Shown here in pieces: positions 13,336 to 31,014 of a DNA stretch of 64,000 nucleotides. This DNA comes from Paramacrobiotus metropolitanus (lineage: Eukaryota > Tardigrada > Eutardigrada > Parachela > Macrobiotidae), in contig NW_026570225.1 of the NCBI RefSeq assembly GCF_019649055.1, positions 1,550,001 to 1,614,000 on the forward strand, read 5' to 3'. The translations under genes and the position numbers were made by a program. A model generated the notes under the pieces. That model had not been told where the DNA came from, ran no database searches, and saw only the letters and a list, made by a program, of their open reading frames with translations. How positions within the stretch are numbered: the first letter of the stretch is position 1; every line of letters starts with the position of its first letter.

Positions 13336-14329
13336 CTATTGCTGAATTGCCTTTTGCCGCTTAAGAAATTCTATGACCTCTTTGGGCGGAGAATAGTCGA
13401 CGCAGCACGTCTCCGTCAGTCCACAGCCCTTTCCATCTCCCGATATCTGACTAGAACATTTGCGGGCAATGTCGCTGTCCTGCATGCACACTCCATGGTG
13501 GCTGCCCAGCGAATTCACCGCATTGATGGCCACACACTGTTTCGGTCCCTTTTGCACTTGGGCCGTCAGACCGAGGCCCTGGCCGGTCAGACCCAGTGCG
13601 CGCGTCTCGTTATTCAGGGCGTCCACACTGGCCGAACCAGTCAGTGTCACCGCATTGTTCGCGCTGTTAGAGCCACCGGGCACAGTTCCTTCACCGGATG
13701 ATCCGGATCCCTGGCCTCCCGCACCGGCCGATGGAGCCACGGTGGTTGTTTGGTAGAAATACGAAAATCGGTAGTTTTGAAAAGCTATATTCTGTTCGGT
13801 TACTACAGGTTGTGCGTATACCGGCGGGTTTGGAATGTCTACGATCGAACACGAAGATTGTTGAAATTAATACCCTACAGACCCGAGTATAGGGTAAAAT
13901 ATACGAGCTAGCTATTGAGGCAAAAATACTCATTCTCAGTTTCGTGTAAGTTTTGCAATCCGGAGGTAATGTGTACAGTCTACAGCACCTTTCGTCTTCT
14001 CATAAATATGGAACGCGGGCCTAACGCCTATCACTGAAAACTTTTTTTACTGGCAACAGATTCTATACTTATTAGTGGTCAGGTTATACAGTACTCATGG
14101 TCAGTCCTTATCATCGTATACGAGTTACTGACGCACACAAAGCTCTGCCAAACCAGCGCTGCGGCACTCCGATCCACGGAATCATCGGTGCGGTAGGAAA
14201 ATCTGATCCGAAATTCCCGAAAGAGCCACTTTGGGAGTAAGGATACGCCACAACGTATGCCATGACAAAAACCAGTTCTAATCCCATAAACATCATCGCG
14301 CCGGTCAGCATTCTCACTAGGCTCCTCAT
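13336..14329 (-). CDS. secreted protein with a clip-domain-like C-terminus
   Basis: Two exons, 14122-14329 and 13336-13838, join with matching phase 1 (donor GTATAC, acceptor GATCGTAG) to give about 236 residues. The N-terminus has a hydrophobic signal peptide (residues about 8-28, with the core FMGLELVFVMAYVVA), followed by an aromatic and proline-rich stretch and a Gly/Ser/Asn/Ala-rich linker. The C-terminal 60 residues contain six cysteines spaced C-x15-C-x9-C-x10-C-x5-CC, with glycines before the second and after the fourth. That is the layout of arthropod clip domains, which usually sit in front of trypsin-like proteases. No protease domain follows: the protein ends about 20 residues after the CC. 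It may be a regulator, matrix or defence protein. The gene lies directly downstream of the snoRNA host on the same strand, so a shared transcript is possible. The clip assignment rests on cysteine spacing only. Confidence 0.6.
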
Positions 14330-14737
14330 TGTTAGAAATTACGTAAAACTTTAATGAGATTTTCACCGACAAAAGATGATCACAAGGCCACAATGTTCAA
14401 ATGTCAACCTGGTCAAACCCTTGTTCAAAATGAACGTCTAAACTCAAACAAGCTGAAGCAACGTTCTGCCATCTCATCATGTCCGAAAAAAAAACATAAG
14501 CGGAAGATAAACACAACCGACGTACCAGTATTCAAAATATCACTCAAGCTCGAAAACTATTCGTGAATCGCGGCATATTTCCTCATGCGCGGCAGATCAG
14601 ACAGTGCTCAATACTCCATGCTCTAACCGAACAGCATCTTCGCACCTAAAAGGCCAAACAGACAATAAATCATAAGCATCACCGATGAGCAAATTGCCTA
14701 TGAACAAAAGTAGGATGGATACTGATTAATACGGCCA

Positions 14738-14798
14738 CTTCAGAAAGACTAATCGAAGTAATCATCTGCTTCAGTTGTCCCTATCTTTTTCATCATTT
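14738..14798 (-). ncRNA. box C/D snoRNA, two 28S rRNA guides
   Basis: Box C (ATGATGA, 14790-14796) and box D (CTGA, 14740-14743) enclose an internal CTGA (D') and GATGATT (C'). The guide before D' contains AGATAGGGACA, complementary to the 28S segment UGUCCCUAUCU. The guide before D contains TTCGATTAGTCTTTC, complementary to 28S GAAAGACUAAUCGAA over 15 bases. Both targets are highly conserved 28S sequence as I recall it. The RNA would direct 2'-O-methylation with fibrillarin. Confidence 0.85.
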
Positions 14799-14981
14799 GC
14801 TGTTAACCCTTGTTCCTGCAAGAAACTGTCGGCCATTTATAAATAAAACTTACGGATAGTAGCAGACACGATCACCGACAGTTGCCCGTAATTCCGAACA
14901 TCGCCCTGAAATGTGCTATAATTTAATGAACTTCGATACGCTGAAATTTTACAACTACCGAGTGCAAAACTATGTATTTGT

Positions 14982-15061
14982 TCTCAGACAGCCAAGGAAC
15001 GGTATTTTGGATAATCTACACTGAGCATGTTCAGCTGGCAGAATCATTTTTGTCATCATGA
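14982..15061 (-). ncRNA. box C/D snoRNA, 28S rRNA guide
   Basis: Box C is ATGATGA (15053-15059) and box D is CTGA (14984-14987). The D guide contains CCTTGGCTGT, complementary to 28S ACAGCCAAGG. A possible D' CTGA at 15031-15034 has no target that I recognise. The D box lies 79 bases upstream of the acceptor of exon 14854-14905. Confidence 0.75.
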
Positions 15062-15254
15062 TTTTCTAGTCTCACAAAAAAAGCTAAGTAACCTAGCAAA
15101 TTCGCTTCCTGTATCACATGACGTACCGTTCTTCCAATTAGAATGTATATTTCCGTTTATGGCTAGAAATCCGCCGTAATCTAGAACATAATTTTCTATC
15201 ATAAAGACTTCCACCAAAAAACGATAATTTTTTCGATTGATACGCTCCAAAAGG

Positions 15255-15314
15255 GTTCAGTACGGGTCATGTTGTAATCAGTATTTATAAGTGAGACTCC
15301 CGATATCATCACTA
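15255..15314 (-). ncRNA. box C/D snoRNA, possible 28S guide
   Basis: Box C is GTGATGA (15306-15312), D' is CTGA (15278-15281) and D is CTGA (15257-15260). The D' guide CTCACTTAT can pair with 28S AUAAGUGGG with one G-U pair. The D guide has no target I recognise. The D box is 77 bases from the acceptor of exon 15127-15180. Confidence 0.65.
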
Positions 15315-15461
15315 TCAACTGGCACATTTAATTTAGTCCTATCCAATTTACCAAATGAATCCATTCGACCAGCGACCCACTTCAACCACCACGGCTGAAA
15401 ACAGAACTAATAAGCTTATTTTGGAATGCTAAATAAAGATATTCAGAAGAGTTTTCAGTGA

Positions 15462-15534
15462 ATTCAGAACAAACTCATGCAGCATATACAGACTCAGTAT
15501 CGGTGTTGACGTTAAATAAAACAAATCATCATGT
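15462..15534 (-). ncRNA. box C/D snoRNA, 28S rRNA guide
   Basis: Box C is ATGATGA (15526-15532), D' is CTGA (15494-15497) and D is CTGA (15464-15467). The sequence CGTCAACACC upstream of D' is complementary to 28S GGUGUUGACG. It sits in the intron between exons 15594-15642 and 15352-15394. Confidence 0.7.
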
Positions 15535-15714
15535 TAACCAGGCAGAACGAAGGGAGATAACTGTGGTTTAGAAACTGCAAACGTCCGTCGTACCTGCCGA
15601 CTTTTGCACGCTCCACTGTGCCGGACCGGGTTCGGCGGCAGCCTGCAAATATTCATTGTCTTAAAGAATTTGCGAAATAAATTTCTTTCAACATCATCAT
15701 TTTAAACAGGTATC

Positions 15715-15786
15715 ATTCAAACTTATTGGTGGTAAGTTGAAGTCTCGTCATGCCGTATCAAGAGTAGCAAATAGATGTAATCACTT
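15715..15786 (-). ncRNA. divergent box C/D snoRNA, 28S guide
   Basis: The boxes are non-canonical: C is GTGATTA (15778-15784), D' is TTGA and D is TTGA (15717-15720). The D' guide TATTTGCTACT is complementary to 28S AGUAGCAAAUA, and GTTTGAAT before D matches the adjacent 28S AUUCAAAC. Position in the intron, 75 bases from the acceptor, fits the other snoRNAs. Confidence 0.6.
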
Positions 15787-16186
15787 TACCAGGAATACAC
15801 AGAAAGTACTGCAACAATAAGTTCGTATTTACCATCGGTAAGTGTTTTCCGACTTGGCTGCTCATTTCCCATTTGGCGTATAAACTGCAGGAAAATCAAA
15901 CAGTAAGATAAGGAAGTTCGATTTTAATTCCCCGTATTATTTCTGATTTCCCTCAGAGACCTAAGTACCAGTGGAAATCATTTTGCTTTGCAGCAATCCC
16001 AGAAATGTATCAGCACTAGGATAATGAAAGTTCGAACAAATAAATTATACGTATAAATTTACCTTTCAATCATAACCCCTTTGTTTAACAATTCCCGGTG
16101 AGGTCATCTGAAAATAAATACGCATGAACTAAACAGTCATACTGGAAAGAAAAAAGTCCAAATAATTTGTACTGGCATTTCATGAT

Positions 16187-16248
16187 TTCAGATAGAGCTA
16201 ATATGATTTTGTTATCATCATGTTCTATGTGAGCTGGTATCTCATCAA
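16187..16248 (-). ncRNA. box C/D snoRNA, 18S rRNA guide
   Basis: Box D is CTGA (16189-16192). Two C-like boxes are present, TTGATGA (16240-16246) and ATGATGA (16215-16221), so the second may be C'. The guide TATTAGCTCTA is complementary to 18S UAGAGCUAAUA. The D box is 82 bases from the acceptor of exon 16063-16107. Confidence 0.75.
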
Positions 16249-16437
16249 ATCAGGAAGTCAATTTAAATGCAAGATGACCATTAAACTTTTCCTGTGAGCT
16301 TACCAAAGGGAAGACTTCCAATTTTGAGTGCCGTTAAACCATACCAACGAAAGAAATCTACAACCAGGAAAACAAGCCAAATCAGTACTTATGTTCTTTA
16401 TGGCACAAAAAAATCTTTACGGGAGCTTTGACACGCT

Positions 16438-16504
16438 TTTCAGTTAGGCAAACAGTTTTTTGTCACAATGAATCTCAAAGGTGTCCTAAGAAATATCATC
16501 ATAA
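16438..16504 (-). ncRNA. box C/D snoRNA, 28S AGGUGUCCUAAG guide (copy 1)
   Basis: Box C is ATGATGA (16496-16502) and D is CTGA (16440-16443). The D' guide CTTAGGACACCT, followed by a TTGA-type D' box, is complementary to 28S AGGUGUCCUAAG over 12 bases. It shares this guide with the snoRNA at 16742-16819 but differs in its 3' half. Confidence 0.8.
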
Positions 16505-16741
16505 AACAAAGCGCTTCTTTTACAGCTTCTTCCACAACCCGACAGTTTCAACAGCTTTATAATTTTTATAAACTAATCATACTAACACTTACGATTGTAG
16601 TTTCACTTCTCTCGTCGGAGTAAAGTCTTCATCTTCCCATGTCGCAGCAAATTAATCGACCTGTAAATCGTAATCATAAAAATTCGGCAACAACCATACT
16701 CAATTAAGACAAGTACTCAACGACAGTGAAACTGAATTTGA

Positions 16742-16819
16742 AGTCAGACAGTACGAATACAAATTTTCTTGTCTGTTATCACGGCGAATCAAAAGGTGTC
16801 CTAAGATTTGTCATCATTC
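16742..16819 (-). ncRNA. box C/D snoRNA, two 28S guides (copy 2)
   Basis: Box C is ATGATGA (16811-16817) and D is CTGA (16744-16747). The D' guide CTTAGGACACCT matches 28S AGGUGUCCUAAG. The D guide TGTATTCGTACTG is complementary over 13 bases to 28S CAGUACGAAUACA. The D box is 84 bases from the acceptor of exon 16593-16660. Confidence 0.85.
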
Positions 16820-17033
16820 TTCGAGAGTCGGCTTGTACTCCAAAGCTTATAAGCACTGTTATACTACCTACATCACCTACCACTTACCAGTAATCAGACT
16901 CATGAATTACTGTCCAACAGACTTGCAGGTCTTCAAGCTAGATCGTTTTCGCCTCTCTGAAACAAAAATAAAATCGTAAACTATAAATGCATCTCAAAAA
17001 ATCCGGGACATGGCAATCTAAATTTAGCAATTT

Positions 17034-17094
17034 CATCAGAGAGGGCAAGTTATTGTCGTCAAAAAACCTAGGTAACGTAAACTAATCATCACTT
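17034..17094 (-). ncRNA. box C/D snoRNA, 18S rRNA guide
   Basis: Box C is GTGATGA (17086-17092) and D is CTGA (17036-17039). The D guide ACTTGCCCTC is complementary to 18S GAGGGCAAGU, next to the universally conserved GUGCCAGC loop. The D box is 80 bases from the acceptor of exon 16888-16956. Confidence 0.8.
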
Positions 17095-17201
17095 CTGAGA
17101 CTTCTCATTGACTGCTCAAACTTTCTCGACAAGAACTGCGAAAACTCACCGGTCCGAGCAGCTCCTCGCAGACATGTCCAAGGTTCGCCAAGTTCTTCAG
17201 T

Positions 17202-18230
17202 CTGAAATTATTTCGTAGAGATCAGGTTTCTCGTCAAAACCGTGCATGCCATGTTATCACTTTTAAAATAAATCTTGAAAAACCGAGGCAGACATACATG
17301 AGAAATAATCAAACTGTAAAACGGACGGAGTAGCACTAGTCTTATTTGAGAAACTCAACCCACACGATCAAACTTTCAAGCGGTCCCCCGCTACCGGCAT
17401 ATTACGCAATTTTTTCGTTTATTTTCTGGTAAGAAGCTTGCATTAGTGATGAACTGCTTTCCTGCTGTCAGGCGCACCAATGTCATTTCAAAATATAGTA
17501 CTTAATTCAAACTCGAAATCATTAAATGATTAAATGCTATAAATTATGTAATATGGGAAACCGTCAGAGATCTTGGTGGAAGGTCGTCAAAATGCACTCT
17601 GTGCATTCAGAGTCCAGATCTGTTTCATCACCCCAGTTCCCCGAATTATTAAATCTTTTAAACCCATTACATCAGCAACAGCAGCAACCACTACGCCTAT
17701 CATTAAAATCGTTTTCGTCCATACCTATCACTACGGACTACGGAGTACGGATCACTTTGCCGGTGAAGTTCCCGTCGCGACTATCAGCGCACTGTAGGAC
17801 GGCAGACCATCCATCACGGACATGTTCTTTCAAACCAAACCGCAATTCAAGAAATTCCAGTCGGAGGGCAAAACAGAAACCCGAAAAAGATTTCGCAACT
17901 CAAGAACTACAAAATTCAAGAACTTCCTCAGAAATTCGGTACAAAACTTGAAAAACCTGAAAATCATCACAATTCACAACTTGAACCTGGAGTTTCAAGT
18001 TTAAATACAGTGCGCCGTACGGTAGGTAACTAGGTACATAGCTACTAGCGACTTCGCATACTCGAATCGACGCGGACCGCGAGTGCAGTACTTACTGGAA
18101 GAGAGAACTCAGAGAAGCACTTGCCGCGAGTCGAATCATGTTTGGTGTCAATGCCGAAGCAAATCCCGCCATGGTCCACATGGTGGTCCCATACCATTAG
18201 ATATTTTGGTTTTGATTTTTTATTAACTTT
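17202..18230. other. no confident gene
   Basis: This stretch should hold the 5' end and promoter of the snoRNA host (minus strand). The longest open frame, 17526-17951 (+), has low-complexity composition with a short Gln run, and I see no domain in it. Confidence 0.4.
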
Positions 18231-18233
18231 TTT

Positions 18234-18540
18234 GGAAATGGCTATCCTCAAAACCCTGGCATCACAATTGGCTATTGACTATTGTCAGCACCTTTCACCT
18301 CGTTTTGGCTGTTCGCACCACTTTTCAAGTGAATTTTTCACACCACTTTTGGCTTTTCCCCGGCCACAAAAAAAACAAAAAGCAGTTAAATGCAATAAAA
18401 AAGGGGGAATAAATTCCGAATAGTCAAAACAGGGGTGCGAAGATAGCGACAATAGTCCAAAGTGGTGTTAGAATTCCTTTCAAAAAAGTGGTGGGAATAG
18501 CCATAACGGGGTGCGAGATGGTGGGATTAGCCACACCCTA
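18234..18540. repeat. imperfect inverted repeat (foldback element)
   Basis: Sequence near 18240-18300 (GGCTATCCTCAAAACCCTGG and following) is partly inverted at 18430-18540 (GGGTGCGAGATGG and GGGAATAGCC). The middle has CACCACTTTT units in both orientations. It resembles a decayed miniature inverted-repeat element. Its boundaries are uncertain. Confidence 0.45.
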
Positions 18541-18550
18541 ATTTTTTGCG

Positions 18551-19252
18551 TGTCCGAACATTTCGGCATAGGACATTTCGGCATAAGACATTTCGGCATG
18601 AGGGCATTTCGGCATGCGAATATTTCTGCTGTTTTCTAACGTTTTCTTATGAATTCTTATATCTTAGGTTTTCTTAGGCTTTCTTGGGTTTTCTTTGGTT
18701 TCTTAGGCTTTCTTAGGTTTCTTGGGTTCTTAGGATTCTTATGCTTTCTTAGGTTTTTGTAGAGTTACTTAGTTTATAAAATCCTCGCGTTTTTTAAATA
18801 TGATTTTGCAAGTTTTCTAATGTATCTCATGCAAACCTACGTTTTCTTATTTTTATAAGGTTTCGGTTTTGCATGTTTGGCATGTTTTAGGTTTACTAGG
18901 TTTTAGGCCTTCTGAAGTTTTAGTTTTTTTTTAAATTCTATGGATTTTTTCTTAACTTTCTTAACTTGGATAAAATCGGCTTATAGGTTTCTTACCATGG
19001 TCATAATGTTATTAGCACAAGCCAGTTACAACGCATGAGTTTTACAACAAAAACAGCATTACAGTTACAATCTAATTTATCCGCTCCTTCCGCCATGGTC
19101 AGGTATTATGATACTATTATCATTATAAACATTTTATGCCGAAATGTCCTTATGCCGAATTGTCCTTATGCCGAAATGTCCATATGCCGAAATGTCTTAT
19201 GCCGAAGTGTCCAATGCCGAAATGTCCCTATGCCGAAATGTCGGTACGCCAT
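18551..19252. repeat. foldback element with ATTTCGGCATARGAC tandem arms
   Basis: The left arm (18556-18620) has about four copies of CATTTCGGCATARGA. The right arm (19136-19250) has about seven copies of the reverse complement, TATGCCGAAATGTCC. The interior is rich in TTTCTTAGGTTTT-like units. The structure is a terminal tandem array facing an inverted tandem array, as in foldback transposons. No coding capacity is visible. Confidence 0.75.
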
Positions 19253-19793
19253 TTTTGTGAAGATGTTATAAAATTCAAACAATAGTCTGTTACATAGCGC
19301 TGACTTTTTTTAAAAGTCGCTGAGAAGACTGCCCGAATCAAAGTCCATTGAGATAACGCAAAACAACCACTACCGTGATAACACATGAACTGTTATGACG
19401 GCAGCTGTGAACGCGAAGTAAAAACACGTACTAGACATCTAAGTGGAGCAAGCTGGCATCGATGGTGAGTGCAGTGCCGAAATAAAAAGCTACTCGGGAG
19501 TAGGTTTTCATTTCGGCATAACGTTTACAACAGTGATGTCCCGTTTTTTTCACGGGCTCGGTAAATCACGGGAAATTCCCGCACCCCGCACCCGCTTTTG
19601 GCTCGGAAGCGGTAGCGGGAGGCTTTCTGCTCGGATCGGGTGCGGTCGGGAATAAAGCCTGATTAGTATACCCGCCCGCTACTCGGGAAAACACGGGATT
19701 TCTTAGAATTAAAAAAATTTTATAGAATTTCTAGCAATTTTCGCAGCCAAAAAGTGCGTCAGCTTCGCGCTTCGCGCGAAAGTTGGTGTCTTA

Positions 19794-20451
19794 GGGTGGG
19801 TCTCAGATTCAAAGCGCATCTAGCTGCGATACAGCGACTCCAGTCTCCTCGCGAGGTGGCATCGAGTATCGTATCTGTAACCGTGGCCACGGATACAGCG
19901 GCACCGGCCATCATTTCGGAAACCAATTTCGGAAACCGTTCATTTCGGAAACGTTCACTTCGGAAACCAATTTCGGAAACCGTTCATTTCGGAAACGTTC
20001 ACTTCGGAAACCATTAATTTCGGAAATCACAAATTTCCGAAATAATCAAGAAACAAAAGAAAACATAATAAGAATAACAAAAGAATTCATAAAAAAATAA
20101 TACAGTAACTCAAGGAAGCATAAAAATCTAAGAAAAGTTTAGAAAATAAGAAAACCTAATAAAACTTAAGAAAAAATAGGAATAACAAAAGAAAACATAA
20201 AAACGGAAGAAAACCTGAAAATACGAAACCTAAAAATACACTTGGATAATAACATAAGAAAGAAGCACGAGACAGCCTAAGCATAAGAATAGTATAAACA
20301 TAAGAAAACCGAATAAAATTTTTCTGTTGTTTTCACAAAGAATGGTTTTCAAAATGAATGGTTTCCGAAATGAATGGACACCCATACGGCCACCTCGTGT
20401 GGTTGAGCTACAATGCCATAGCGAGATTTGCTTCGAATCAGAGTCCCACCC
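19794..20451. mobile_element. nested MITE, Harbinger-like (TTA duplication)
   Basis: It lies inside the hAT-like element. The left terminus GGGTGGGTCTCAGATTC is inverted at the right end (GAATCAGAGTCCCACCC), and TTA lies outside both ends (19791-19793, 20452-20454). A 3-base TTA duplication is typical of PIF/Harbinger; a Tc1-type TA duplication remains possible. Its centre is a foldback array, listed separately. Confidence 0.7.
19910..20380. repeat. foldback core with TTTCGGAAACC arms
   Basis: The left side repeats CATTTCGGAAACGTTC and AATTTCGGAAACC. The right side has the inverse, GGTTTCCGAAATGAATGG. The interior is A-rich with AAGAAAACCTAA units, the reverse complement of the TTAGGTTTTCTT units inside the element at 18551-19252, so the two are probably related. 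Confidence 0.65.
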
Positions 20452-21362: not shown

Positions 21363-21433
21363 TGCGTTGTCCGGGAATCGAACCCGGGTCGCCCGCGTGG
21401 CAGGCGAGCATTCTACCACTGAACCAACAACGC
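21363..21433 (-). tRNA. tRNA-Gly(GCC)
   Basis: The 71-base minus-strand sequence forms a perfect 7-bp acceptor stem (GCGTTGT/ACAACGC), has the A box TGGTTCAGTGGTAGA, an anticodon arm CTCGCCTGCCACGCGGG with anticodon GCC, and the B box GGTTCGATTCC. The discriminator base is A. There is no intron and CCA is not encoded, as expected for a nuclear eukaryotic tRNA. Confidence 0.96.
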
Positions 21434-22447: not shown

Positions 22448-25036
22448 ATGAGTTCTAACAAGAGTCGGAAGAGAAGTTCTCTTCTGGGGAAAATTCGCCA
22501 GCAGGTTCGTACGAGAAGAGCGTTGTTTGCTTTCTGATTTCAACTTGTTTAAATGGCATAACTACTGTACATGCAGCATGAGCATAGGGATCATAATTAT
22601 TATGGTTTAATTACTTACTTTAGCGGTTTAGCCGTGTATGGTAGTACCGTTGCAGTCTTGCTGATTTACAGTCATTTACTTGCTGTACTTTACAATGTCT
22701 TTAACACTGCCACTCTACTTACAGCCTTACATCTACATTCTAGGCTGAGATTGATTTTTCAGATGGAATTTTACTTCAGTGATGCCAGTTTAAGTAAGGA
22801 CCGCTTCCTGCAGGAAAAAATCAAACAGTCGGAAGATGGATGTAAGTAGGCGCTGAACAAAAGCCCCAGTTAACGTGTTGCAAGTTACAGCAACTACCTA
22901 AAAACAGTAAAATGCTCAACTTTTAACCTCCAGTTAGGTTATGTAATTCAGTATTCATTATAAATTTTAATACCTACTTAAGAGTAGTTAAGACTACAGA
23001 AGCTTGTGGGTGCCAGGCGCTTCGCTTGCCCTCTCTTTTTACGGTACGATCGTCGAGTACTAATAATTATTATGGTTTGCGCTGTACAGATGTTCCTGTA
23101 TCTCTCTTCCTGTCCTTTAACAAGCTGCGATCACTGACGACAGAAGAATCTCTTATTCGAGAGGCCGTCAAGACTTCTTCTTTGCTGCAGGTAACATGAT
23201 TTCTTACGCTGGCAATTAAAATCCGTTTTTTTGTAAAAACGAGAAAGAAAACATCGCCAAACGATGTGACTGAAATAATGATTCCTTCCAAATTTTCTGG
23301 CATTATTGAACTGACTTACAGGATAAAAAAAAATATTTATATATTTCATGCTTTATTTACATTTGAGTGCAAACCTCGGGTTTCTGCAGCTTTCGGAGGA
23401 TGGCTCGAAACTGAAACGCTGTGTGCCCATCAACTCGGATTTGGGACCGGTAGATGAAAGGACTCTGTATGCGGTAAGCTGATTGATTGATTAAGTCCTG
23501 CGTGATTTAATTGACAGTTTGCGGAAATTTTAGGAAAACATTCCGATGCATGCTGATCATGAGTGGCTCAAGAGTAAATTTTCCGTTTTCGGGCCAGTCC
23601 AGTACATTAGCCTCCCTAAATTTAAGGCATTAAAAACGATCAAAGGGTTTGCCTTTATCGAATTTGACAGTCCTGCTGCGGTTCAACGTGCCTGCGAAGT
23701 AAGTGGGAAGATAGATCTTTTTGCATCACTACTCGTGCCGGAACGGATATTACGTACAAAACAACATCAACGATAAGTACTAGAAGTATGCCGAAAGACA
23801 GTAAAGCACATGTTAATCAAAGTAACGTTTTAGTGTAAAATTACTAGTAGTTTTAATTAGTACTCGTAAGGGTACATTTAAGTTTTGCAGAAAATTTGTC
23901 CGTTTAAGGGGATGAGGCTTCAGCTTGTTTGGTTTTGACTTCAGTATTTTGCTCTTCCTTCCGCTGATTCTCAGCCAATGTTTGCTAAAGAAGCCGACTT
24001 GCCGAGCGTTCCCATTGTGACTATTCAGGATTTCGACGAGGACGAAATATCTGCCGCACATGGAACGAAACGCCGACACGACGATGTGGACACGGAAACT
24101 CCGGCTCTCCTTCCATCTAATGTTTCCGCAGAGTCAAAGCGTCACGAAGGTGAAGTTCCAGTCGCTCCTAAACCGATGTACCGGTTGCAGACAAAACCCA
24201 AAGGAGCACCTAGCAAACCCAATGCTCCTATCCTTGATCTCCGTCCTTTGAAAGTGATGCCCAAAACCCAGTGGATGGAATTGAAGAAGCGCTACCTGGA
24301 TCTGCAGAAAGCCAGCTATCGTGCCATCAAACAGAAACTCAACATGCTTAACGTTGGGGATGATGATCAGTCAGAAAGTAACGGAATGAAAGATGATGTT
24401 GACCTAATGATGGATAGCGACGATGACGAGATGTCGGAAGTGTCGGTGGATAAGGTCAAACCGCAGTCGCCGCACAGGAGAGTGCAAGCACAAAAGAGGC
24501 CGCAGAAACTGAGTGCTCCCACCAATTCCCCTGTTAAATCGACGGAGAAGAGTGTTAACCAGGTGCTCGGTGCCATTCTGCACTGGACCCTGTCCACTCC
24601 GATGGAAGACCGGAAAAAGTTAATTCAAGATGTTCGCACCATCAAACATGTGGAATTTGTGGATGTGCAGAACCCTACGGAGGTTATTGTGCGATGTGCT
24701 ACCGCCGAGGGTGCTAAGGAAGTTCGAGAGGAATTAATGAAGCGGGATAGTGGAAATGTGATCCGAATTCTTGAGGGTGACGAAGAGAAGGCCTACTGGA
24801 CAAAGATTGAAAGTGATATGAAGAAGCGCAGTGTCATGGGAAAGCAGCGACGCGGAAAGGCTAAGGTACGCGACGGCACTGCTCAGTCTGACGTAAGTTG
24901 CGGCTGATAAATGGGGAGCATTCATTGGCTTTGTTTTCATACGGTTGTATTGTAGGTTGTGGCCAATGCTGAAGAAGAAATGGAGAGTGTGGTGAAGGGA
25001 AACATTCACAACCGGCTTCATATAAAATTTGAGTAG
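22448..25036 (+). CDS. LARP7: La-related protein 7 (7SK snRNP chaperone)
   Basis: LARP7 binds the 3' end of 7SK RNA and stabilises the snRNP that restrains P-TEFb; in some animals it also promotes U6 modification. Exons: 22448-22504, 22763-22841, 23090-23190, 23390-23473, 23534-23698, 23975-24892 and 24956-25036, all consistent in phase. The La motif starts at MEFYFSDASLSKDRFL (residue 20), and RRM1 follows with KGFAFIEF (RNP1). A charged linker contains the family-conserved segment around WMELKKRYLDLQKAS. The C-terminal xRRM carries HVEFVDVQNP and GDEEKAYW, and the protein ends HIKFE, close to the HIRFSEYD end of human LARP7. The start ATG gives a short basic leader (KSRKRS), as in the family. 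Confidence 0.93.
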
Positions 25037-26146: not shown

Positions 26147-26905
26147 TTATCCGAAAAGTTGCGACACCTGCTTGACAGTGTCTTCCGGCGACGTCACCGT
26201 ATGCCCCACCGTCCTCGCATCTTCAAAAATCTCATGGTCATTTCCTCCAGGCATGGTTTTATCGCCAAAAAAGTGGATGATCTTGAATCCGTCCTTTTCC
26301 AAATGCCGCAAACAGTACGTCTTATCCCAACCCTTGGGAAACACGTCGATACTGATTTGTCCACCGATACTGAACACCAATCCCAAATCAGAAAATTTCG
26401 CACGGAAGTCATCAATCATGGTCTGTCGTATCTTGTGCTCCTTGTCGTACTCCACAAATGCATCCCGTTCCGCCTGTGAACAGGAACGCCCTACAGGGCA
26501 CACATTCAGCATGCCTTTGCGGAATTCGATGAATGTTCCGCGCTTGAGTGGCAGACGGATTTTAGAAAGATACGCCAGTGCATAGTTGATAAAGTCCTGC
26601 AGTACTTCTTCGCCAAAGTGTTTCTGCAGGGATTCTTCGTGGATGAGTTGGCCATTCTTGAAGGCCACGAGGCCGTTCTCGGAAAAGCAGTAATCGAAGC
26701 GCATGGCTTCCTCCATTCCACCCATCTGTTCGGCGATCTTGGCCAGATCGGAGCCTCCAACTAAACCTACGTGCACTTTCTGCTGCAGATTCTCCAGGAA
26801 GTTCTTCGTCGTCGCCGTAATGCAATTGCGCGGCTTCGTCAGTGTCCCGTCCACGTCGAACAGGCAGATAACGTCACACGGACGGTCTAACATTTTGGGA
26901 ATCAT
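26147..26905 (-). CDS. PMM2: phosphomannomutase
   Basis: Phosphomannomutase interconverts mannose-6-phosphate and mannose-1-phosphate in the cytosol, feeding GDP-mannose and dolichol-mannose for N-glycosylation. The 252-residue frame has the HAD nucleophile motif DVDGTL (Asp at about residue 16), the conserved [10 protein letters not shown], the substrate-binding stretch with [16 protein letters not shown], and the C-terminal [16 protein letters not shown] that binds Mg2+. Length matches the family (about 246 residues). I chose ATG 26905; the frame stays open to an ATG at 27049, giving a 48-residue hydrophobic extension that I doubt. There are no introns, unlike most genes here, so a retrocopy origin is possible. 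PMM1 and PMM2 cannot be told apart by eye. Confidence 0.93.
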
Positions 26906-27049
26906 AGCGCGTCTTAGAACACGGGAGAGGAATGCCAAAGTTGTTGCAGAACTTCTAACAATTAATTTTAAGCAATTGCTGCGGTGTTGCAGCACGGTGA
27001 GATGCACAATACAATGCAACCAAAACAGACCGACAGCGCTGCTGATCAC

Positions 27050-29734: not shown

Positions 29735-31014
29735 ATGTCGCTGCAGTCCAGTGAATTGCGGGGATTTTTAACATCATTCAATGCAAAGTTTGCCAGCAGA
29801 CTGACGGAGTACTACACATCTCGACATCCAGGCCAATCAGCCTTTAAAAAATACGTCCGTCCCAGCAGCAACTCCAACAACAACACCCACAATCAGAACA
29901 GCCACAGTACAAAAATGGACGACGACAAGCGGTCATCGGTCATCAAATTCGCGTGCTCCGCGGTTGATACACAGCCGTTGGATTTGTCTGTGCCCAAACC
30001 GTCAACGTCAACAAAATCCAAAAAGACCATATCACTGGCAAAGCAGCACGAACCAGTCAGCCTGTGTAAGGCAGACAGCGAGGAGAAAACGCTGACCGAA
30101 AGCCTCAGCGATGAAAAACTTGTAGGCATCAAGAAAAGCAGTAAACTCGGACAAGAATTTGAGGTGGAAAAAGCCGACGGGAGAGCGGAATGTGGATTGT
30201 GTGGCAAGTTATACGCGACCAAGAAGTGTTTGAAGATTCATCTTCGGCTGCACTACGGCATCAAACCCTACCAGTACGTTGCAGTGTCCGGCATGCAAAT
30301 CGTGACCTTTCCAACGTATTTCTCTTGTTCCGTAGGTGTAGTTTCTGTCCGAAGAGTTTCGCTCAGTCCAATGTTCTGAAAGCGCACATTGCCTACCACA
30401 CCGGAAGGCGGGACTGGGTGTGTGAGATCTGCAATAAAGCCTTCACACAGTCGGCACATCTGCGCACGCACAGGAAGACGCATTCGTCGCAGAAGGATTA
30501 CCAGTGTCCATACTGCCAGCGGTGTTTTAGTTCCAAGCGTACGTATGCGTTATCGACAACCATTAAACTCCATATTTATTTTTGGACTCTAAAATTGCGG
30601 TCTTTTGTAGAGAGATGCGAAACTCATATTCGCCATCACACTGGCGAGCCGAATTACCGCTACGTGTGTCTGGCGTGCGACAAGTGCTTCACGCGCAGTG
30701 AATCGCTGCGCTACCACGAGAATTCCGTCCACCGGGGATTTCGGCCCTACATCTGCTCAGACAGGAGCTGCGGGAAGACATTCAGTCGGCAGTCCAGTCT
30801 CAAACGCCACATTCGCTCCGTGCACGGGCTCAAACAGGAACAGGAATCGACACCGGAAGTGGAGACTGCCACTCCGTCTGTCGTTGATGTTCCGCCGCCG
30901 GTTGGAGCCGGCAGTAATCCGCCCATTGTCCGTCCCATCTGTCACGTCGCCCCTCCGTTTTTCAACCATCTGGTGCGGTACAATTCAGCGGATGTCGACT
31001 GCAGCGGTATCTGA
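29735..31014 (+). CDS. six-finger C2H2 zinc-finger transcription factor with PLDLS motif
   Basis: Three exons, 29735-30273, 30336-30538 and 30611-31014, join in frame. Residues about 89-93 form PLDLS, the motif by which many repressors bind CtBP. Six C2H2 fingers follow: CGLCGKLYATKKCLKIHLRLH, then CSFC...H-x3-H, CEIC...H-x3-H, CPYC...H-x3-H, CLAC...H-x4-H and a final finger with a wider CSDRSC spacing and H-x4-H. Linkers between early fingers are TGEKP-like. The tail is Pro-rich. The junction from 30273 to 30336 restores a complete second finger and the one from 30538 to 30611 a complete fourth. It probably acts in the nucleus as a DNA-binding repressor. I do not assign an orthologue. Confidence 0.88.

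Follow-up and report, generated by a model that had tools for sequence, protein, structure and literature searches.

A probable noncoding host gene for intronic box C/D small nucleolar RNAs in the tardigrade Paramacrobiotus metropolitanus

What may be encoded in a stretch of DNA that a gene-finder relying on reading frames would leave blank? The question is raised by a locus on the minus strand of a 64,000-nt segment of contig NW_026570225.1 of the tardigrade Paramacrobiotus metropolitanus (hereafter the window; all coordinates are positions within it), for which a sequence-only reading had proposed a host gene of multiple small nucleolar RNAs (snoRNAs). The follow-up reported here supports this proposal by a chain of splice sites, closed exons, C/D boxes whose distance to the 3′ splice site varies little, and guides complementary to ribosomal RNA (rRNA). 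We consider that the locus is in all likelihood, as far as such features can tell, a noncoding host gene of several snoRNAs, each intron housing a single box C/D snoRNA. This interpretation is preferred because the splice chain, the closed exons, the near-constant box spacing and the direction of the guides to sites methylated elsewhere fit it best; the lack of a reading frame and the single copy found in the genome belong to the same body of sequence-level support.

The chain of short exons, A to J and then K, occupies the minus strand from 17201 to 14697 and is delimited by consensus splice sites. Exons A (17150..17201, with acceptor atttcag and donor GTGAGT), B (16888..16956), C (16593..16660), D (16304..16357), E (16063..16107), F (15833..15884), G (15594..15642), H (15352..15394), I (15127..15180) and J (14854..14905) measure 52, 69, 68, 54, 45, 52, 49, 43, 54 and 52 nt, respectively, all with GT donors and AG acceptors, while the ten introns from A-B through J-K extend over 156-235 nt each and have GT...AG ends. 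The chain of about ten exons of 43-69 bases with consensus splice signals, as originally described, is thus borne out by exons A-J, and where at least one exon closed in all frames had been claimed, two are found, since B and E both contain stops in all three frames. For the last exon, K (14526..14697), the 3′ end is tentative, with a donor-like GTACGT at 14525 and ATTAAA at 14355. When K is taken to 14360, the three frames of the spliced exons A-K contain 14, 16 and 13 stops, so that all are closed, and the longest frame opened by ATG comprises 51 amino acids, any exon upstream of A being left out. A search of the genome (169,799,020 bases in 533 contigs) with 2971 bases of the locus returned one match, the locus itself, and a phage search with the locus gave no match. 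Pyrimidine tracts upstream, at about 18106-18097 and at 17890, are candidate terminal oligopyrimidine (TOP)/TCT starts only; for snoRNA host genes such starts are described as mixed with canonical ones (PMC6954239). A protein exon considered upstream, at 18200-18096 with a good donor at 18095, was dropped, its frame being isolated among short repeats.

The number of stops also bears on the first of the rival explanations, according to which the exons form the 5′ untranslated (or coding) part of a protein gene, for instance of the same-strand frame at 14327, and the snoRNAs lie in introns of an mRNA. This frame, MRSLVRMLTG..., starts 28 nt after the ATTAAA at 14355, and exon K could reach it; however, with 13-16 stops per frame in the joined exons the leader would have to be about 0.9 kb long and contain many short frames, and a separate short gene directly downstream is the simpler reading. 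We regard a host of this kind as improbable, if less so than the other rivals.

A box C/D element is found in nine of the ten introns from A-B to J-K (s1-s4 and s6-s10, numbered in the order of transcription), and the earlier claim of nine elements, one per intron, holds for these but not for intron E-F, where s5 (15953..16010) is a doubtful, weak C/D-like element without a good C box. At the same time the set is larger by one than previously described: a tenth element, the SNORD24-like s0 (17555..17642), lies just upstream of the exon chain, outside the span first delineated, and has a terminal stem of 9 pairs and a guide of 12 bp. All of these elements are on the minus strand. Boxes C (RUGAUGA) and D (CUGA), exact or with one deviation and 52-72 nt apart, are present in s0-s4 and s7-s10, while s6 is degenerate in both and s5 is devoid of box C. 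Terminal stems of 4-9 pairs are formed in s0, s2, s3, s4 and s6 (4 pairs in the latter), and a stem of 3 pairs in s1, while the 4 pairs of s7 stand 4 nt away from the boxes.

The position of the elements relative to the splice sites is nearly invariable. The distance between the last base of box D and the 3′ splice site is 79, 83, 82 and 80 nt for s1-s4, 68 nt for the doubtful s5, and 70, 69, 76, 78 and 42 nt for s6-s10; in eight introns, then, it falls within 69-83 nt, the exceptions being s10 (42 nt) and s0, to which no 3′ splice site could be assigned. A conserved position upstream of the acceptor is described for intronic C/D snoRNAs (PMC8162545). With thresholds chosen after the elements had been seen, 8 of 10 elements (s0-s4 and s6-s10) had a donor 39-90 nt upstream together with an acceptor 66-85 nt downstream; elements placed at random satisfied both limits in 11-12% of cases (binomial 1.2e-6). 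The same regularity bears on the second rival, an unspliced polycistronic precursor or independently produced snoRNAs of the sort found in plants and yeast, with splice-like signals arising by chance. Some snoRNAs of other lineages are produced in this way, but here one element falls to each pair of donor and acceptor, box D stands 69-83 nt before the acceptor in eight introns (68 nt in the doubtful s5, 42 nt in s10), and this spacing agrees with the position reported in PMC8162545 for intronic C/D snoRNAs; we hold this explanation to be very improbable.

If the elements are snoRNAs of a noncoding host, their guides should be legible in rRNA, and they were compared with the Rfam eukaryotic consensus and with a contig of ribosomal DNA (rDNA) that we take to be ciliate-like (BQJP01000067.1) as stand-ins, the organism's own rRNA being represented by 18S. 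At least 10 bp of pairing directly upstream of box D or D′ are found in s0, s2, s3, s4, s6, s9 and s10; in s1 this extent is attained only on the Rfam and ciliate 18S, where it amounts to 11 bp, and s5 reaches 11 bp only with G-U pairs and at no known site. Individually, s0 carries the guide CCACCAAGATCT to 28S AGATCTTGGTGG, whose 12 bp are exact in the Rfam large-subunit consensus; s1 (17030..17100) carries ACTTGCCCTCT to 18S GAGGGCAAGT; and s2 (16740..16822) is a double guide with a SNORD58-like D′ guide to 28S AGGTGTCCTAAG and a SNORD41-like D guide to CAGTACGAATACA, a putative target. The second SNORD58-like element, s3 (16434..16508), is predicted to act one base further 3′ than s2, and the SNORD44-like s4 (16183..16252) bears the guide ATTAGCTCTA to 18S TAGAGCTAATA, with an 11-bp match in the organism's own 18S. 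In s6 (15709..15790), SNORD76/24-like, with degenerate C and D boxes, the guide TATTTGCTACT is directed to 28S AGTAGCAAATA. For s7 (15462..15538) the putative guide CGTCAACACC, 4 nt off box D′, had been assigned to 28S GGTGTTGACG, likewise a putative and here uncertain target; s8 (15255..15317) is a box C/D element with no target identified. Two further double guides complete the series: s9 (14982..15064), with the D guide CCTTGGCTGT to 28S ACAGCCAAGG and a D′ guide to the SNORD47 position 18 nt further on, and s10 (14738..14801), with the SNORD74-like D′ guide TGTCCCTA and the D guide TTCGATTAGTCTTT to 28S AAAGACTAATCGAA, which we take to be the SNORD77/80 position.

Thus the initial statement that the guides match rRNA stands for the greater part of the targets: AGGTGTCCTAAG, AGATCTTGGTGG, AGTAGCAAATA, GAAAGACTAATCGAA, ACAGCCAAGG and GAGGGCAAGT are exact in the Rfam eukaryotic consensus, and TAGAGCTAATA is exact in the organism's own 18S. 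Three others are not confirmed on the stand-ins. TGTCCCTATCT is one base off both the consensus and the ciliate sequence, so that the D′ guide of s10 pairs over 8 bp and then meets a mismatch; CAGTACGAATACA is interrupted in both stand-ins, its length containing one mismatch to the consensus and two to the ciliate sequence; and GGTGTTGACG has no match in the consensus or ciliate stand-ins. The D′ guide of s9 pairs at 11 of 12 positions on the ciliate (one mismatch) and has 3 mismatches on the consensus. Counting five bases upstream from box D or D′ gives the guide position that pairs with the methylated base, so that sites can be predicted: s2 points to AGG[U]GUCC and s3 to AGGU[G]UCC, neighbouring bases. 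The two guides of s9 select C residues separated by 18 nt, and 28 nt ahead of the first of these comes the D′ site of s10; s0 and s6 have sites at a distance of 12 nt from each other. The names given to the s1 and s4 sites and to that of the s10 D guide are provisional. In a table of chicken snoRNAs, which carries no sequences, U58 is listed at the adjacent U3682 and G3683, and the spacings of 18, 28 and 12 nt equal the differences 3376-3358, 3358-3330 and 2124-2112 (PMC2653536, table 1).

How readily could such an arrangement appear by chance? In the control, an exact RTGATGA C box was counted if a D or D′ box lay downstream of it within set limits and had an rRNA guide of 10 bp or more, with a single G-U pair permitted. 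On the minus strand from 17660 to 14690, 7 of 10 exact C boxes had such a guide, compared to none of one on the plus strand of the same stretch, none of 15 on both strands of the remaining 61 kb of the window (1 of 15 at 9 bp), and a mean of 0.025 with a maximum of 1 in 200 dinucleotide shuffles. One of the seven, s7 (box at 15458), has a match in the ciliate only, at a site not known as methylated, and probably owes it to chance, leaving 6. Element s4 was counted by its inner box (16221); s1 did not enter the count, its target in the own 18S being one G shorter, nor did s6, whose C box is inexact.

At gathering score Rfam recognised no snoRNA in the window, only a tRNA-Gly (GCC) at 21363-21433 of the minus strand. 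Below it, SNORD58 (RF00151, cut-off 42) scored 36.6 bits on s3 and 33.0 bits on s2, SNORD24 24.7 bits on each of s0 and s6, SNORD74 24.1 bits on s10 and SNORD41 21.0 bits on s2, in a list of 22 window matches up to E 10 of which most others are chance or overlapping. A SNORD61-like candidate at 17973-17912 (21.8 bits) was rejected, as no guide fitted, and so was an element at 14480, which has a C box yet lacks both CTGA and a good guide. Genome-wide, with E up to 1, SNORD58 had two matches among those listed, s3 (E 2.1e-4) and s2 (E 0.0022), in neighbouring introns; the list is possibly incomplete, scoring having covered 64 of the 81,185 first-look candidates, and of 14 control genomes from bacteria and archaea, 2 likewise gave sub-cut-off matches of this family. 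The degenerate C or D boxes of s5 and s6 and the lack of an Rfam match above cut-off might suggest a decayed relic whose snoRNAs no longer work, but guides of 11-14 bp in s0, s2, s3, s4, s9 and s10 would hardly outlast decay, which makes this reading highly implausible.

A number of observations nevertheless weigh against the noncoding host gene. Apart from the lack of Rfam families at gathering score, terminal stems are of 2 pairs only in s8, s9 and s10, and none of five elements folded was more stable than its shuffles at z < -2; weak structure is usual for C/D snoRNAs. Intron E-F yielded no convincing snoRNA, a guide target for s8 was looked for in rRNA and none was identified, and box D of s7 was picked among several. 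Most guides were scored on the Rfam consensus and ciliate rRNA rather than on the organism's own 28S, and on these stand-ins the guides s2 D, s9 D′ and s10 D′ pair with interruptions. As to the own 18S, the 11-bp match of s4 agrees with the prediction while the target of s1 does not, for the 18S reads GGAGGCAAGT, one G fewer than required, in both copies read (contig C184). Both show GGAGGCAAGTC in this strongly conserved stretch, as against GGAGGGCAAGTC in the Rfam consensus and in the ciliate; the missing G is either an assembly error or real. Finally, s10 and s0 fail the donor/acceptor test, the limits of which were set post hoc, and the first exon and the 3′ end of the gene are provisional.

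On balance the noncoding host gene accounts for the locus best, and from the features above we infer its transcription, splicing and processing and the resulting methylation. RNA polymerase II would transcribe the host gene, the short exons would be spliced to an RNA without a long reading frame, and each excised intron would be trimmed to one box C/D snoRNA, which in complex with fibrillarin, NOP56 and NOP58 would guide 2′-O-methylation of 18S or 28S rRNA, the modified residue being the one that pairs with the fifth guide nucleotide before box D or D′. A literature search combining snoRNA or small nucleolar with tardigrade gave no title on tardigrade snoRNAs; about ten predicted guide RNAs and methylation sites are hereby proposed for the phylum.

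Just after the possible poly(A) signal of the locus, at 14327-13339 of the minus strand, lies a secreted-protein-like gene with a hydrophobic start and a cysteine-rich end, and a scan of its presumed second exon (13866-13339) gave no Pfam match. A 141-codon open frame on the plus strand at 17526-17951 runs antisense over s0 and is probably due to chance. Further away are short repeats at about 18530-20100, with frames like 'RHFGIG...FRH' and 'SETFTSETNFGNRSF', a plus-strand frame with an RRM_3 domain at 23978-24907 (E 3.1e-9), a phosphomannomutase at 26150-27049 of the minus strand and a C2H2 zinc-finger protein at 30190-31011 of the plus strand. Outside the window, the stand-in BQJP01000067.1, filed under a Thermodesulfobacteriota metagenome-assembled genome, consists of telomere-capped (CCCCAAA/GGGGTTT) eukaryotic rDNA with several insertions inside the rRNA genes, and its presence in that record is likely contamination. 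In the tardigrade genome rDNA copies were located by a search for the 5.8S family. One locus (contig C12:1850500-1859500) is perhaps a partial rDNA copy, since it has a 5.8S gene but the 2.9 kb examined upstream of that gene contain no 18S core motif. Decayed 28S fragments were seen at contig C137:200471-200632 (80% identity over 162 bases) and in another locus (95% identity over 44 bases), with no further rRNA seen in either; the searches that gave them also returned one hit with 3 mismatches. The genome also contains 88 exon-wise HSP70-family matches (contigs C72, C13, C6, C45 and others, several per contig on C72 and C13), so that this family is perhaps expanded.

With which known genes may the tardigrade locus be compared? 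Host genes of this kind had been pointed out in vertebrates (UHG, GAS5), which is correct, but they are described in Drosophila as well (Uhg, PMC4430873). According to PMC2653536, noncoding multi-snoRNA hosts occur in human, mouse and fruit flies, whereas C. elegans had yielded none when that paper was written. Drosophila Uhg (dUHG) is reported to have up to 16 introns with a single snoRNA in each save two, and no recognisable frame (PMC4430873; also PMC13228274, PMC5932544, PMC9710044); the tardigrade gene resembles it as an invertebrate noncoding host with one snoRNA per intron, the comparison being one of architecture and not of site content; a literature search for names of fly snoRNAs turned up none of the site names. 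Among the sites proposed here, the SNORD58 type gives a more particular likeness: both copies share the guide UCUUAGGACACCU with RF00151 and have adjacent predicted targets, as the chicken table lists for U58. The scores of s2 and s3 remain below the gathering score, and whereas the chicken U58 copies are placed in RPL17 and one further mRNA (PMC2653536), the tardigrade pair occupies neighbouring introns of one host. Vertebrate UHG/SNHG1 has the same architecture, and its snoRNAs, U22 and U25-U31, serve other sites; none of them was recognised in the tardigrade gene.

A further comparison is with GAS5. The chicken gas5-like host (mRNA CR387333) is described as a spliced noncoding gene with ten intronic box C/D snoRNAs and no conserved frame (PMC2653536), and, like it, the tardigrade gene is predicted to be a noncoding spliced host of intronic box C/D snoRNAs. 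Sites in common are 18S A165 and 28S A1469, A2124, C3330 and C3376 (chicken numbering). By our tally the chicken table contains 75 rRNA sites, ten of them in gas5, and has no entry for the SNORD41 site; of ten tardigrade sites present in it five are served by gas5, against 1.3 expected (P 0.0027 for n=10, 0.0046 for n=11), in a test that is post hoc and restricted to nameable sites, whose names are partly provisional. Without the interrupted s10 D′ the overlap is 4 of 9 (P 0.015), and without s9 D′ too it is 3 of 8 (P 0.068). Unlike GAS5, the tardigrade gene has sites of the SNORD24, 58, 41, 103 and 53 types, which are absent from gas5, and the double guides s2, s9 and s10; the phylum is distant and the likeness rests on sites, not on exon sequence. 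The order of snoRNAs differs from that of the chicken host (PMC2653536, table 1) and weighs little, since it varies among vertebrates (PMC2653536). A literature search for GAS5 beyond vertebrates gave nothing by title. Common descent of the two hosts, one ancestral host having been kept by its snoRNAs alone since before the split of protostomes and deuterostomes, with exons drifting and snoRNAs exchanged, is possible rather than shown and on present evidence rather improbable. The locus thus adds a new example to an already known gene type and offers a test case for whether the content of GAS5-like hosts is ancient or was assembled anew.

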